DNA from: Alphaproteobacteria bacterium
GTDB lineage: Bacteria > Pseudomonadota > Alphaproteobacteria > CAAGCB01 > CAG-977
Direction: 5' to 3'
Assembly: GCA_017616015.1 (NCBI GenBank)
Contig: JAFZYY010000030.1
Span: 124,001 to 188,000 of the forward strand
DNA: 64,000 nt
Part shown: positions 23,031 through 29,491 of the stretch, piece after piece
How positions within the stretch are numbered: position 1 is the first letter of the stretch
Layout: every line of letters begins with the position of its first letter
Program-made: the position numbers and the translations under genes
Notes under the pieces: model-generated
Told to the model about the DNA's origin: nothing
What the model saw: the letters and a program-made list of their open reading frames with translations, nothing else
The model's database searches: none

Positions 23031-23921
23031 ATGGTTGAAATGGTTGGTAGCGGTGTTGAATTCAAGGGAATGTCCGTGAATCGGGGCACATGGGAAGCGT
23101 TTTTGTCCGCGACGACACACGGCGTTATCAGCGTTAAGGAACGCCTGAAACAGAAAAAGGACAAAGTCGTTCAGGCCGTTCCGGTTTTGAAAAAAATAAG
23201 CGACAGATGGCATGCATTTAATTCCAAAATGGAAGCAAAACACGGACAGGTCTATACCAAAATCCGCGACAGTGCCAAAAACATTACGCGTACCGTTTTA
23301 GCCGTTGAACTGTTCGGTTTACCGGGCGCCCTTGGCATGTGCGCTTATAAAACCTGCGAAAAGGCGATGTCCATATTAGAGCCGGCTCAAAAGGCGAAAG
23401 AACGCGGCGAAACAGATAACATTTTGGATTATATAAAGAAAAATAAAGAAGAAAGCCGTTTCACGGCGGTGTCGGGCGCCATCAGTATTTGCTCCGCAGC
23501 TTGTGATGTGGCGGGCGCTCCGGCAGTTAAAGGCGCTGTCCGCGTCGGAAAAGCGTCATGGCTGATCACGCCGGAAGTCAAGCAATTGGCCAAAACAATC
23601 GGAAAATGGATACGCGGCGAAGAGTCTTTCGTTGAAGTCCGGCGCGATGCGGCCGTGTTAGGCATTACGTTCGGGACATACTTTATTTCCAGCGTTCCGA
23701 TGACACATGGTTCCGGCAAGCCTCAGGAAACGGAAGAATCCAAAAAGGAAAAAGAAAAACAGGCTCAAAAGACGGAACAAAACGTCAAAAAAGTCAAATC
23801 TGCTTTGAGTAAAGGGCAGGAATATGCCGATCAGGTGCGGGATTTGATTAACAAAGGCATCGGAAATCCGGGCGGTATGACAACGATTTATGATATAAAG
23901 AATAAAAAAGAGGGACGCTGA
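23031..23921 (+). CDS. Orphan protein with central hydrophobic stretches, unknown function
   Basis: 296 residues, not recognised. The N-terminus is basic and helical (KERLKQKKDKVVQA), the middle has two moderately hydrophobic regions (about 90-110, VELFGLPGALGMCAY, and 145-170, AVSGAISICSAACDVAGAPAV) that could be amphipathic or membrane-inserting, followed by a Lys/Glu/Gln-rich coiled stretch (about 235-265). No signal peptide. The ribosome binding site is weak. It stands alone between argH and a strong terminator, and no conserved neighbour hints at its role. Confidence 0.65.
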   Translation: MVEMVGSGVEFKGMSVNRGTWEAFLSATTHGVISVKERLKQKKDKVVQAVPVLKKISDRWHAFNSKMEAKHGQVYTKIRDSAKNITRTVLAVELFGLPGALGMCAYKTCEKAMSILEPAQKAKERGETDNILDYIKKNKEESRFTAVSGAISICSAACDVAGAPAVKGAVRVGKASWLITPEVKQLAKTIGKWIRGEESFVEVRRDAAVLGITFGTYFISSVPMTHGSGKPQETEESKKEKEKQAQKTEQNVKKVKSALSKGQEYADQVRDLINKGIGNPGGMTTIYDIKNKKEGR

Positions 23922-23993: not shown

Positions 23994-24698
23994 ATGGATT
24001 TTTCAGAAAAAAACGAACAGGAACTGATTGCCGAATATGCGGCGGCGAAGGAAGCAAACGATACGGCGACGATAACGGCTTTGCAGAATGAAGCATTTAC
24101 GCGTTTTACGGCGTATCTGGCAGGGGATTTGCCGATTGCGGAGGACGAATCTCCGCTGTTTTTCAGTTTTATCAGGACTTTTTCCAAAACGGACAATGTT
24201 GATTTGAACTTGTCGGCTAAAAAAGCGGAAGCAAAGATTACGCCGTTTTTAAAGGAGTTCGACAAAACGGTAGGACTTGACCGTTTAGCTGATTTGTCCG
24301 CCGAAAAAATCGAAGAAAACATTGCCGCTTTAGAGGATTTCGACACGATAGATCCTTTTGAAAAACAGGACGATAAGCTGATTTATCCGCAGTTTGAAAA
24401 AGCGCTGAAAGTGATTTCGGCCGTTGTTTTGACGGACGGGGATCAGCCGGCGGAACAACAGGAACAGGAATCGTTTAAAGAAACGATTGTCGAAACGGCA
24501 AAATTAAAAGCATATATGCGTCTGTGCGGCTACGGTGACGAACTGACGCAGGAACTGTATTTGGATCAGGTGCGGTTTGAAATGGAAAAAGCGTTGGTGA
24601 CACTGTTTATGATGGAACAGGCAACAGAACTGGTTCAAGATAAAACAGATGCTGAGGGCATTCAAAAAGCCTTTGATAAATTAGCGGAATCCCTTTAA
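23994..24698 (+). CDS. Hypothetical acidic cytoplasmic protein
   Basis: 234 residues, not recognised. Highly acidic, predicted almost entirely helical, with no cysteine clusters, signal or membrane segment. A GGAG element precedes the ATG. It has its own promoter and terminator and therefore appears to be a single-gene unit. It shares a general acidic helical character with the protein at 12286-12741, but no clear sequence similarity was seen by eye. Confidence 0.65.
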   Translation: MDFSEKNEQELIAEYAAAKEANDTATITALQNEAFTRFTAYLAGDLPIAEDESPLFFSFIRTFSKTDNVDLNLSAKKAEAKITPFLKEFDKTVGLDRLADLSAEKIEENIAALEDFDTIDPFEKQDDKLIYPQFEKALKVISAVVLTDGDQPAEQQEQESFKETIVETAKLKAYMRLCGYGDELTQELYLDQVRFEMEKALVTLFMMEQATELVQDKTDAEGIQKAFDKLAESL

Positions 24699-24728
24699 AA
24701 AAAGCCCCGTGTTTTCGGGGCTTTTTTA
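24697..24728. terminator. Intrinsic terminator, bidirectional
   Basis: AAAAGCCCCG and CGGGGCTTTT pair around a 6-base loop, with T runs on both strands, between the convergent genes ending at 24698 and 24732. Confidence 0.85.
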
Positions 24729-24731
24729 TTG

Positions 24732-25430
24732 TCACCATAACATATCCATTTCTTCCGGGCTCGGCTCTTTTGCCGGAGGTTTTGTTGTAATCGCCGAGGT
24801 TTCATCTTTGGCTGGAGCCGGTTTTTGTTTCCGCGGTTTTTCGACGGTTCTTTCTCTGACCGGCGTGTTCGGTGCCGACCACTTCTTTTCCTGTTTATAC
24901 AAGCGGCTGTTCGGGTTATAGATCAGCGACGCGGCCTCCTCGATGGCGCTCGCCAAAGCGAAATAATACGCATCTGATACCATGAAATAAGTGTCCGAAG
25001 CAAATACCAAAGGAAGAAGAAGCCAGCCATAATATTCCCGTTCTTTTACACGGACGTTCGATAATGAAATCGTTTTTCCTTCGGAAACGTCTGTTAAAGA
25101 AAACGGAATCGAATTTTCATGTGTCGACCATGTCGGCAAAATCCAAAATGTCAGTCCTGAAAGGAAAAATGCCCCGATGCCGTCCATTTCAGGTTGAAAT
25201 GTTTCGCCTTTAACGATGAAATCGGCGGCCTGCTTGGAAGAAGCGGTCAGAAAATACTGCCGCATCACTTTTTGGACAGGTTTTGATACCCGTGCGTTTT
25301 CATTGGGAATATACAGCTTTGCCTTTTCGGTCGGTTCAATCACATCATAATGCGGATATTTTGTTAAATCGGTAGCGCTGACACACCCTGACAACAATAA
25401 AACGGCAAAAACAAGGATCTTCTTCATCAT
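24732..25430 (-). CDS. Paralogous lipoprotein, third copy of the tandem family
   Basis: 232 residues. Lipoprotein signal with lipobox LLSGC (C16); V follows, so outer-membrane sorting is expected by the Lol rule. Family core: TKYPHYDVIEP near the N-terminus, a strand with ADFIVKGETF, a hydrophobic GLTFWILPTW, SLSNVRVKEREYYGWLLLPLVFASD, then AIEEAASLIYNPNSRLYK. The same blocks occur in the next two genes. The tail is Pro/Lys-rich and ends EEMDMLW. RBS AAAGGA. Last gene of the five-gene lipoprotein cluster, closed by a terminator. No known domain recognised. Confidence 0.8.
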   Translation of the reverse strand: MMKKILVFAVLLLSGCVSATDLTKYPHYDVIEPTEKAKLYIPNENARVSKPVQKVMRQYFLTASSKQAADFIVKGETFQPEMDGIGAFFLSGLTFWILPTWSTHENSIPFSLTDVSEGKTISLSNVRVKEREYYGWLLLPLVFASDTYFMVSDAYYFALASAIEEAASLIYNPNSRLYKQEKKWSAPNTPVRERTVEKPRKQKPAPAKDETSAITTKPPAKEPSPEEMDMLW

Positions 25431-25441
25431 TTATTCCTTTC

Positions 25442-26125
25442 CTACCAGGCGGCGTCCATGTCTTCGGGCGTTGCCGGCGCAACCGGAGCGGAAACGGACG
25501 CGGCGGGATTATCTTGTGCCGGCTCTTCGGCAACGGGGGCGCCCCATTTCTTTTGCATTGTTTTTTGATATAGCTTGCTGTTTTCGTTATAAACCAGCGA
25601 AGCTGCTTCTTCTATTGCGTTGGCTGTCGCTTTGAAAGACGAATTATCGTCCATGAAATACACGTCGGAAGAAAAAATCGTCGGCAACAAAAGCCAGCCG
25701 CCTATCATTCTGCTGGTCGTGTTCACGTCCGACAGGAAAACCGTTTTTTCGGTTTTCGTCCGCGTCAAAGTGTAGGAATAACTGTATTCGGCTTTTGCCC
25801 AACTGGGAATAATGCCGCCGGAAAGAACGGTAAGAAGCAATGCCGTGGAAGTCAGGCCGCTTGAATTATCCTTCCATTGCGTCTGTTTTAAAATAAAGTC
25901 GGCGTGGCGTTCGTCGGATTTAATGAAATATTTCTGCCAGGCCTGCTTAACGATCGGGGAATTCAATATCTCCTGATACCATTTATCCAGATAATTATCC
26001 GGCTTGGCGATAAACAAGCTGGCTTTGGCCTGAGGCACGGTGACGTTGTAGCGCGGATATTTCGTCAGGTCGCTGGCACAGCCGGATAACAATAAAACGG
26101 CAAAAAACAAAAGCTTTTTCATCAT
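25442..26125 (-). CDS. Paralogous lipoprotein, second copy of the tandem family
   Basis: 227 residues. Signal MKKLLFFAVLLLSGC with the lipobox cysteine at 16. Core blocks parallel the neighbours: TKYPRYNVTVPQAKASLFI, a YFIKSDERHADFILKQTQW segment, GGIIPSWAKAEYSYSYTLTR, FLSDVNTTSRMIGGWLLLPTIFSSD and AIEEAASLVYNENSKLYQ. The tail is Ala/Pro-rich and ends EDMDAAW. Its start overlaps the stop of the first copy by 4 bases, and 11 bases separate it from the third copy. Function unknown. Confidence 0.8.
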   Translation of the reverse strand: MMKKLLFFAVLLLSGCASDLTKYPRYNVTVPQAKASLFIAKPDNYLDKWYQEILNSPIVKQAWQKYFIKSDERHADFILKQTQWKDNSSGLTSTALLLTVLSGGIIPSWAKAEYSYSYTLTRTKTEKTVFLSDVNTTSRMIGGWLLLPTIFSSDVYFMDDNSSFKATANAIEEAASLVYNENSKLYQKTMQKKWGAPVAEEPAQDNPAASVSAPVAPATPEDMDAAW

Positions 26126-26751
26126 TTATTCCTTTCTTCCTGAGGCGCGTCCATATCTTCTGGCGCCGGCGTAGCCGGAGCGCTCCGATTTTTCTGCGTA
26201 TTTTGGTACAGTCTGCTGTCCGGATTATAAATCAGCGAAGCGGCTTCTTCGATCGCGGAAGCCATCGCCGGCGCGCGCGACAAAGTGTTCGCGCCGTCCA
26301 TTCTTACGCCGGGGAAAAAGATTGCGGGCATCAGCAGCCAGCCGACGTAGAGCCTTGATTGTCCCTGGACGTCGGACAAAAAGGACGTCTCCCCGTTTTC
26401 CTGCCGCGTCAGAGAATAGGAAAAAGTACAGCTCTGCTTTCCCCAGGTCGGAATAATGCCGATGGTTCCCACCGTTAAATAAGCCCACCCGCCCGTAGAG
26501 CAATCTTTCTGCCAGGACGTTTCTTTTAAAATAAAATCCGCTTCTTTTAAGTCGGATTCGATGAAATACTTTTGTCGAATCTGTTGAACCGAAGCGAAAT
26601 CCAGAGGATTGTTACCCCAACTGCCGGGATACGTTTCGATTGCCAGAGAGACTTTTTCCCGCGGTGTTTGCACGTCGTATCTTTTGGCAACGGTGATTTC
26701 CGTCGCGCAGCCGGACAATAAAATAACGGCAAATATTAAAAGCTTTTTCAT
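26122..26751 (-). CDS. Paralogous lipoprotein, first copy of the tandem family
   Basis: 209 residues from the ATG at 26751, chosen because the lipoprotein signal (MKKLLIFAVILLSGC, C15) starts there and the upstream gene ends 4 bases before. Core blocks: KRYDVQTPREKVSLAIE, YFIESDLKEADFILKETSW, GTIGIIPTWGKQSCTFSYSLTR, FLSDVQGQSRLYVGWLLMPAIFFPG and AIEEAASLIYNPDSRLYQ. The end is EDMDAPQEERNK, where the two other copies end with a tryptophan shortly after EDMD or EEMD. Start overlaps nothing; stop overlaps the next start by 4 bases. Outer-membrane lipoprotein of unknown role. Confidence 0.8.
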   Translation of the reverse strand: MKKLLIFAVILLSGCATEITVAKRYDVQTPREKVSLAIETYPGSWGNNPLDFASVQQIRQKYFIESDLKEADFILKETSWQKDCSTGGWAYLTVGTIGIIPTWGKQSCTFSYSLTRQENGETSFLSDVQGQSRLYVGWLLMPAIFFPGVRMDGANTLSRAPAMASAIEEAASLIYNPDSRLYQNTQKNRSAPATPAPEDMDAPQEERNK

Positions 26752-26755
26752 TCCT

Positions 26756-28276
26756 TTACTCCGTTGGCAGATTGATGTCCACAAGCGTGTTCTGATCGGT
26801 TTTAACGGTGAATTGATCGGAATAAACCGTCACATCGCCGTTTCGGATTTCAACCGTGTATTTTCCCGCAGGCAAGGACAGTGTTTGTAGCCAGATCGCG
26901 TCGGGTAGCAGGCTCCAATATCTTAAATCCGGTTTTTCGGACGCCTGAATCGCCGCGTGTTCCGCCGCCAAAGTCCCCGCGCCGGCTCCTAATGCGAATA
27001 AATCACCCCAGCCGTCGCCGAACTGTTGATTCCCTAATTCTCTGGCTGCTTTTTGCGCCGCGTAGGCGCCAACGACCGCCAGAGCGTATTTTGTTCCCAT
27101 GCGCGCCAGCTTTTTGTTCACCAAGGCGGGATAGCGCTCGATATATTCCTGACACGCGATTTCCGATACCGGATTGATTAAAGCCATTTTGCCTTGCGTG
27201 AAGACTTTGCCGGACGATTCTTTGAGGACGAAATTGTATTCGGAATCGACCTGCGGGCATTCGATGTTCGGCATCGGTACGGTAATCAGCCCGTTTGCCA
27301 GAAACAACCCCAGCATCACGTTCATATCGGCTCGCGATACGGCCGCCGCCGCTGCTAAAATCGCGGGGTCAAGCTTGAATTTCGGTTCGGACGCAAAGCG
27401 TTCCCCGACCAATCCCGTTTTTAAAACGATGGTCGTATTCTGATCACTGTTTGCCCGTTGCGCCAAATCGCGCAGCTCTTTTGTGTAAGAAGTAGATTTC
27501 AGATAAGTCGCCGTCATTTCCGCCGCTGTTTTTTTCGGCAGGTTTCTGTATTCGCGCACATACGGAATCCAGTTGACGTTGTAGGCCGGATACATCGCGT
27601 AATTGCGCGTCAGATACATCGGCACCTGTTTAAATAATTTATCAGCGATCTGTTTGTCCGATGACGTGCCGATTGCGCGGTGAATCAGCCCGCCCCAGAT
27701 TTTTGCCGCCATATCCTGTTTGAACACGGCTTTTCCCGCATTGGAATGCGCCATATCGCTCAGAAAAGAATCCCATTCGACGATCGTCGCGCGCGCCGCG
27801 TATAAATGCTTGCGTCGTTCTTCGGAGGACAGTATTCTTTTCGGCGTTTTTTCGTCGATTTCTTCGTAAAATCCCTGCTGATAGAGCATATAATGACATA
27901 ACGACTGATAGAATCGAATTAAAGACTGTTCATAGCGTTCGCCGGGATAGTCGGTCATCGAATCCCCGAAAATCTGGGCGCCGGCCGTTTTGGAAACGCT
28001 GACCGTGAACATTTGTTTAGCGATGTCGGCCGCGCGGTCGAAATGCTTTAATGCCTGATAATAATGCCCTTGCATATAGTGTAGGGAACCGCGCTCGGCC
28101 TCACGCACGAAGCGGTCGGATTTGGACGACATATAGTCTTTGCCGAAAACCGTTTCCGAAGCAATATCAAATCGCCCGTTACGGACGTTGGTCAGCATTT
28201 CTCTGCGAATATCGATGTCGGAAGAACACCCTGAAAGAACCAGCAATACGGCGGGCAAAATCTTTTTCAGCTTCAT
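26756..28276 (-). CDS. Large outer-membrane lipoprotein, COG3014-like, with TPR-like N-terminal region
   Basis: 506 residues from the ATG at 28276, supported by GGAGG 8 bases upstream and by a lipoprotein signal (LVLSGC, C17, then SS). After the signal comes a helical region with an ERGSLHYMQGHYYQALKHFDRA tetratricopeptide-like unit, DYPGERYEQSLIRFYQSL, a middle part around AKMALINP, a hydrophobic Ala/Gly-rich stretch (ALAVVGAYAAQKAAREL) and a C-terminal strand domain with LPDAIWLQTLSLPAGKYTVEI. This order resembles the uncharacterised lipoprotein family COG3014, recalled from memory. It lies between the ankyrin lipoprotein and three small lipoproteins, all on one strand. Confidence 0.72.
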   Translation of the reverse strand: MKLKKILPAVLLVLSGCSSDIDIRREMLTNVRNGRFDIASETVFGKDYMSSKSDRFVREAERGSLHYMQGHYYQALKHFDRAADIAKQMFTVSVSKTAGAQIFGDSMTDYPGERYEQSLIRFYQSLCHYMLYQQGFYEEIDEKTPKRILSSEERRKHLYAARATIVEWDSFLSDMAHSNAGKAVFKQDMAAKIWGGLIHRAIGTSSDKQIADKLFKQVPMYLTRNYAMYPAYNVNWIPYVREYRNLPKKTAAEMTATYLKSTSYTKELRDLAQRANSDQNTTIVLKTGLVGERFASEPKFKLDPAILAAAAAVSRADMNVMLGLFLANGLITVPMPNIECPQVDSEYNFVLKESSGKVFTQGKMALINPVSEIACQEYIERYPALVNKKLARMGTKYALAVVGAYAAQKAARELGNQQFGDGWGDLFALGAGAGTLAAEHAAIQASEKPDLRYWSLLPDAIWLQTLSLPAGKYTVEIRNGDVTVYSDQFTVKTDQNTLVDINLPTE

Positions 28277-28277
28277 T

Positions 28278-29408
28278 TCAGTTTCCTCCGCAGGCGTTAC
28301 CGGTGTATTGCGCCAGAATGACAAGGCCGTTTTCGATCATAAAGCTTGTCTGGCAGAAATTTTTATATTGAGGTTTGGCCGGTTCCGTCAAAAGCCCGCC
28401 CGTAAAGCTGTCCCCGTAAACCAATCGCGCCAAAGACGAACCCGTTTCCGAAGCGACATGATGCGAATAACCGTAGAAATATTCATTGACATATTCGCTG
28501 ATCGCACGGCTTTTAAACGCTTTGCCCCATGTTTTTTCCAACGCCGCCAACGGAGCGCCGGACCACGAATTGATACGGTTTTGATAGCTTTCTTTGATAT
28601 TGCAAAGAGCCTGCCTGCCAAACAGAATTTTTGTTTTTTTCAGTTGATCAATAACGGTAGTGTAAATCGATGTTTCCCACAATTCCTGCCGTTTGACGAG
28701 TTTTTGCAAAACACTTTCGCAGGCGTTATCCCGCGCGTTTAAATCAAATAAAGGTATCAGTGCATTGATGATATCTGTGTTTTTATTTTTGGAAACGGCG
28801 ATCATCAAAGCGTTTTCGCCGTTTTCATTGACGGCTTTTTTATCGGCGCCGGCGTTAATCAGCTTTAAAACGATTTCAGGATTTTTATTTGATTCGGCTG
28901 CAATCAGCAAAGGCGTCCGGCCGTTGACGGGGTCTTCCTTGTATGTGTCGTTTATTTTTGCTCCCGCTTTCAGCAAAACCTCTATTATTTGCGGGTTTTT
29001 GACGCGCCGCGCCGCCGTTAAAATGGGGGAAATACCGGATTTGTTGCGATGGTTGACGTCGGCTTTCATTCTTAACAGCCGGTTGACAACGTCTAAACGG
29101 GCATCCTCTTTTTGCAACTCGATCATCAGCGCCGTGTTGCCGGCTTCGTTTTCGGCGTTAATGTTTAAAGATTTGGAAATCAGAAATTCGACGGCTTTTT
29201 GATCGGGGTTTTTCCAAACGGCGTACATCAGCGCCGTGCGTCCCGCATCGTCCGCCGATTCAGAAGAAAACCCGCGCTCGAAAGCGTTTTGAACGACGGA
29301 CAATCCCTGATTGGAAAAAACATCTATTCTCTTTTTATCCAAAGGCTTGGCCGAAGAACAAGCTCCCAATGCCATCAGCAACGGCAAAAGGAAATAAATT
29401 CTTTTCAT
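28278..29408 (-). CDS. Ankyrin-repeat lipoprotein
   Basis: 376 residues from the ATG at 29408 (AAAGGGG upstream). Lipoprotein signal ending LGACSS, lipobox cysteine C17. About five ankyrin repeats follow (about 35-230), seen as GRTALMYAVWKNPDQKAVEFLI, GNTALMIELQKEDARLDVVNRLL, GISPILTAARRVKNPQIIEVLL, GRTPLLIAAESNKNPEIVLKLI and GENALMIAVSKNKNTDIINALI. The C-terminal 140 residues are not ankyrin and contain several cysteines. First gene of the five-gene cluster, and a surface or periplasmic protein-binding scaffold is the likely role. The last base lies one base from the next start. Confidence 0.85.
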   Translation of the reverse strand: MKRIYFLLPLLMALGACSSAKPLDKKRIDVFSNQGLSVVQNAFERGFSSESADDAGRTALMYAVWKNPDQKAVEFLISKSLNINAENEAGNTALMIELQKEDARLDVVNRLLRMKADVNHRNKSGISPILTAARRVKNPQIIEVLLKAGAKINDTYKEDPVNGRTPLLIAAESNKNPEIVLKLINAGADKKAVNENGENALMIAVSKNKNTDIINALIPLFDLNARDNACESVLQKLVKRQELWETSIYTTVIDQLKKTKILFGRQALCNIKESYQNRINSWSGAPLAALEKTWGKAFKSRAISEYVNEYFYGYSHHVASETGSSLARLVYGDSFTGGLLTEPAKPQYKNFCQTSFMIENGLVILAQYTGNACGGN

Positions 29409-29463: not shown

Positions 29464-29491
29464 CAAAAAAAGAGGGCTTTTCAGCCCTCTT
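29464..29491 (-). terminator. Intrinsic terminator of htpG
   Basis: On the minus strand GAGGGCT, loop GAAA, AGCCCTC followed by seven T, 5 to 30 bases after the htpG stop. It separates htpG from the ankyrin lipoprotein operon that starts about 60 bases further on. Confidence 0.8.

Follow-up and report, generated by a model that had tools for sequence, protein, structure and literature searches.

The five lipoprotein genes at positions 24732-29408 of the window, which is the whole 64,000-nucleotide stretch of DNA that was analysed, may well form an accessory envelope module of lipoproteins, a partner-swapped variant of the COG3014-LpoB-LPP20 type, a reading that we put forward tentatively. Specifically, the operon combines a large TPR-type lipoprotein (Big) with an ankyrin-repeat lipoprotein (Ank) and three small lipoproteins of one rare family (S1, S2 and S3), and LpoB and LPP20 partners are absent from it by Pfam and NCBIfam. 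The reading is suggested by a Big paralogue that is encoded with LpoB elsewhere in the same genome, by the synteny of Big with LpoB in relatives, by the fold matches of modelled S2, by the hydrophobic inserts and the tail of the S proteins, and by a gene fusion in a distant genome; what the products would do is thereby judged from homology, synteny and modelled folds.

A compact operon in a variable spot

All five genes lie on the minus strand and point in one direction. Ank (28278-29408, with its ATG at 29408) encodes an ankyrin-repeat lipoprotein of 376 aa with the lipobox LGAC-S and is followed by Big (26756-28276), a COG3014-type TPR lipoprotein of 506 aa with the lipobox LSGC-S, and then by the small lipoprotein genes S1 (26122-26751; 209 aa; LSGC-A), S2 (25442-26125; 227 aa from the first ATG; LSGC-A) and S3 (24732-25430; 232 aa; LSGC-V). 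The gaps are +1 base between Ank and Big, +4 between Big and S1, -4 between S1 and S2, where the S2 ATG at 26125 overlaps the S1 TGA by 4 bases, and +11 between S2 and S3. Because the +2 residue is never Asp in any of the five lipoboxes, outer-membrane sorting of the products is suggested, and we propose that each of the five would receive a lipid anchor and be targeted to that membrane. Gene calls and lipoboxes in this way confirm the first-pass annotation, which had described five co-directional lipoprotein genes with gaps of -4 to +11 bases and non-Asp +2 residues.

The strong terminator that had been placed at the end of the operon is likewise borne out: an intrinsic terminator at 24698-24727 folds with -18 kcal/mol (z -5.4; 0 shuffles matched it) and, being symmetrical and located between S3 and a convergent 234-aa gene, is assigned to neither strand and common to both. 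Upstream of the operon, htpG has a terminator-like stem-loop of its own at 29470-29491 (no strand assigned), and Ank is therefore probably the first gene of the transcription unit; scoring for a sigma-70-like promoter upstream of Ank found none. The base composition of the operon is near that of the neighbouring DNA.

Beside argH, on the other side of the shared terminator, lie a 296-aa gene (X296, 23031-23921, plus strand) and the 234-aa gene (X234, 23994-24698, plus strand), both without family assignment. They are conserved in G003, G004 and G005, with their order reversed in G003 and G005, and G004 has an additional paralogue of X296.

The five-gene order was found in the window genome only, with the component genes scattered elsewhere, so that the conserved order anticipated in relatives by the first-pass annotation did not hold. 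In the sister genome G005, the gap beside htpG is empty, with argH, X234 and X296 followed by the terminator alone and then htpG, and the same gap contains different small ORFs in G004 and G003; the operon therefore occupies a variable spot. The S family itself occurs in three of the 12 family genomes, namely the window genome (G000), G004 (one copy) and G007 (two copies). A fourth, more distant genome, G049, has it too, and no relatives were found in the remaining genomes of the class (385 genomes) or in plasmids or viral contigs. Those relatives that come from named records belong to MAGs of Alphaproteobacteria, including one from roe-deer rumen. In G004, the single S gene (L066:6071-6646) lies near a rubrerythrin-type gene and is accompanied by neither Ank nor Big; its lipobox cysteine is gone (LLSGG) and the first helices are missing, as if the gene were decaying. 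A phage or plasmid origin of the operon was considered and rejected, given the lack of S relatives in plasmids and viral contigs and given that PHROGs matched ankyrins and signal peptides only.

Big and its LpoB-linked relatives

Big is the second, diverged copy of its kind in the 2.09-Mb genome of a gut-type alphaproteobacterium. The other copy lies on another contig (C32) in the order rnpA-yidD-yidC-engB-Big-203-aa lipoprotein-LPP20-LpoB, and the two are about 37% identical. Aligned with 15 relatives, the window protein shows 27-40% identity and keeps the invariant columns. LpoB stands beside Big in 12 of 15 alphaproteobacterial loci, the C32 copy included and usually with LPP20 as well, and the three loci without LpoB are contig ends; the gene order around Big is either that of C32 or reordered. 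Since LpoB also adjoins Big in nine of ten more distant Pseudomonadota loci found by a Big profile search, Big represents a widespread LpoB-partnering type of TPR lipoprotein. A scan of named genomes for Big alone gave no matches. The sister genome G003 has a second Big of its own (L028:5748-9263), which keeps the 203-aa, LPP20 and LpoB partners.

The name COG3014 for Big, which follows customary annotation and the first-pass annotation, is retained because the relatives adjoin LpoB; a matching model was found in neither Pfam nor NCBIfam. The description of Big as a large COG3014-like lipoprotein of TPR type is supported to that extent. In its AF2 model (pLDDT 86.5, pTM 0.86), an N-terminal TPR-like solenoid precedes a C-terminal beta domain that includes a long hairpin of helices. 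The best structural matches are TPR proteins with Z 10-12.6, values that are ordinary for helical repeats, and the match to TPR sequence models falls under the Pfam cut-off.

A recent duplication of the C32 copy is weakly rejected (p-AU 0.027), which weakly favours an old divergence of the window Big over a fresh duplicate. Long branches in the tree blur its exact placement; it joins the G008 and G080 copies, which share an insertion, and this join may be an artefact.

By architecture and LpoB-adjacent synteny, the likely counterparts of Big are Cj0089 and HP0018 (PMC11394524, PMC3100323). The earlier statement that none of the products has a recognised function was therefore too strong, given that deletion of HP0018 causes hypervesiculation; its loss also leaves cells less helical, and MltD and AmiA are possible partners (PMC11394524). 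In C. jejuni, cj0089, cj0090 and cj0091 are co-transcribed (PMC3100323). The window operon shares with this operon, and with those in which HP0018 and HP1457 homologues occur in enterohepatic helicobacters, a TPR lipoprotein of ~50 kDa and small lipoproteins in one tight unit, but LpoB and LPP20 are missing from it, and it has the paralogues S1-S3 instead, with Ank and its C-terminal WG-x-P domain encoded upstream. Counting against the partner-swapped module is that Cj0089, to which Big probably corresponds, was recovered in the inner-membrane fraction (PMC3100323).

The S family and its modelled fold

As judged from their sequences, S1, S2 and S3 are true paralogues with pairwise identities of 45-52% (S1 and S2 52%, S1 and S3 45%), in agreement with the first-pass annotation. 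They have no convincing match among Pfam or NCBIfam models, which includes the Pfam families of TraT and CsgG. With signal peptides removed, profile comparison gave 0.9% probability for LpoB (PF13036), for which Pfam and NCBIfam matches were also absent, and 0.4% for LPP20 (PF02169), again without a Pfam match. The idea that the S proteins are diverged LpoB, which an 88% profile match had raised, was discarded when that match disappeared on removal of the signal peptides. S1-S3 thus show no relatedness in sequence to LpoB or LPP20 and may not do the job of LpoB, which counts against the partner-swapped module.

The AF2 model of S2 (pLDDT 71, pTM 0.65) has a predicted alpha/beta fold that resembles LptE (Z 8.4, the best; rmsd 5.2 over 126 residues), TraT (Z 7.4; rmsd 5.2 over 138), CsgG (Z 7.0; rmsd 4.4 over 133) and FlgT (Z 6.7; rmsd 4.0 over 125). 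Such values would permit a shared fold without establishing kinship, and Z 7-8 at rmsd ~5 may reflect a common arrangement alone, which again speaks against the preferred reading. The resemblance to the LptE/TraT/CsgG/PelC/FlgT type of lipoprotein concerns the predicted core of S2, which carries hydrophobic inserts; in the S family these are located around residues 88-109 and 136-152, placed between strands and ahead of the final helix. The S family differs from that type in lacking a sequence match, in having a disordered tail with a conserved end and in comprising three tandem paralogues.

This tail, predicted to be disordered in S2, ends in EDMDAAW in S2 and EEMDMLW in S3, and the end D/E-M-D-x-x-W recurs in one G007 copy; the final tryptophan is missing in S1, a further point against the partner-swapped module. 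Across the 12 family genomes, D-M-D-x-x-W followed by a stop is a coding tail of S genes only. Two pattern matches outside the family were set aside: the one in G004 has in-frame stops and is not a coding tail, and the one in G005 reads TGG-TGG with no stop and no ORF of at least 100 aa.

The fold bears on what else the operon could be. One alternative, which we consider unlikely, is an accessory defence island in which S1-S3 are TraT-type lipoproteins that act in surface exclusion or block phages or conjugation, while Ank and Big help in their assembly. Foldseek ranks TraT first for the S2 model (E 2e-4), the distribution is patchy and the insertion site variable, and homologues of TraT whose function is unknown are also encoded on chromosomes (PMC11733297). 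Against this, LptE, CsgG and PelC match S2 about as well, so that the fold is unspecific, the Pfam family of TraT is not matched, relatives in plasmids and viral contigs were not found, and a COG3014-type partner is indicative of envelope biology.

It is similarly doubtful that the small lipoproteins are exposed, diversified by duplication and presented by Ank and TPR scaffolds for surface adhesion, as the first-pass annotation had proposed. The S2 model also resembles the HpaA adhesin, and mutants of Cj0091 are less adherent (PMC3100323). Known adhesin domains are absent from the operon products, however, and Cj0091, whose surface exposure was not demonstrated (PMC3100323), is LpoB-like and hence exactly the member missing from the window operon; with this as the sole adhesion datum in a related operon, the proposal is left unsupported. 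The outer-membrane assembly role suggested alongside it is likewise unsupported. Just as unlikely as the two alternatives above is a duplicated operon that is decaying or neutral and has no dedicated function: its occurrence in one genome and the degenerate S gene of G004 speak for it, and five intact frames with lipoboxes kept, tight spacing and an own terminator speak against it.

Ank, a candidate complex and its meaning

Ank has about five ankyrin repeats at residues ~50-230, after the signal and lipobox, and their match to Pfam Ank_2 (PF12796; E 3e-30; 104.9 bits against a cut-off of 27.3) substantiates the ankyrin-repeat lipoprotein of the first-pass annotation. Ankyrin-repeat stretches are abundant in the window genome (21 matches genome-wide), with equal or higher numbers in G007, G010 and G017. 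Residues ~268-376 form a separate C-terminal domain with the pattern G...L...WG and then C..F...G......G..C (WG-x-P...C...F), which scores 2e-15 against a profile built without Ank. Several other alphaproteobacteria encode this domain by itself, as a small lipoprotein; in Ank it is fused behind ankyrin repeats. Such small lipoproteins with WG-x-P...C...F...G...C (L105-L128) make up one protein family, without a name or a Pfam model, that is spread over several families of Alphaproteobacteria. None of 13 members of the C-terminal-domain family matched BamE/SmpA in Pfam, and no more than a weak WG-x-P similarity to 4h0a/4ifa emerged when PDB sequences were searched; a BamE/BLIP-like fold is a guess. 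In G049, the C-terminal stretch of the S homologue matches the WG-x-P domain (domain E 1.3e-4 with the profile without Ank), a modest match given that a signal-peptide decoy reached 0.004 in the profile search. This fusion links the S and Ank parts.

The available data are compatible with a model in which S1-S3 would assemble at the membrane, perhaps into a mixed ring, by means of their hydrophobic inserts and alpha/beta bodies, and in which their disordered tails with the acidic-aromatic end could dock onto the TPR groove of Big or onto the Ank repeats. Big would then serve as adaptor for the membrane-associated S proteins and Ank as a further adaptor, and the complex may stabilise or regulate the organisation of outer membrane and peptidoglycan, as proposed for HP0018. 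A bolder version, which we regard as distinctly improbable, holds that S1-S3 make up a novel hetero-oligomeric lipoprotein ring in the outer membrane, anchored to the TPR/ankyrin scaffold by a C-terminal acidic-aromatic peptide code. If true, this would be the periplasmic equivalent of peptide docking onto TPR proteins, in a module whose LpoB had given way to a new family of partners.

COG3014-type TPR lipoproteins accompany LpoB across Pseudomonadota. The short conserved tail peptide of the S proteins and the fusion-supported link between the S and WG-x-P parts provide two handles on the system. Taken together, the occurrence of an LpoB-less Big beside other lipoproteins suggests that Big is an adaptor with exchangeable partners and not a fixed part of PBP1B activation.
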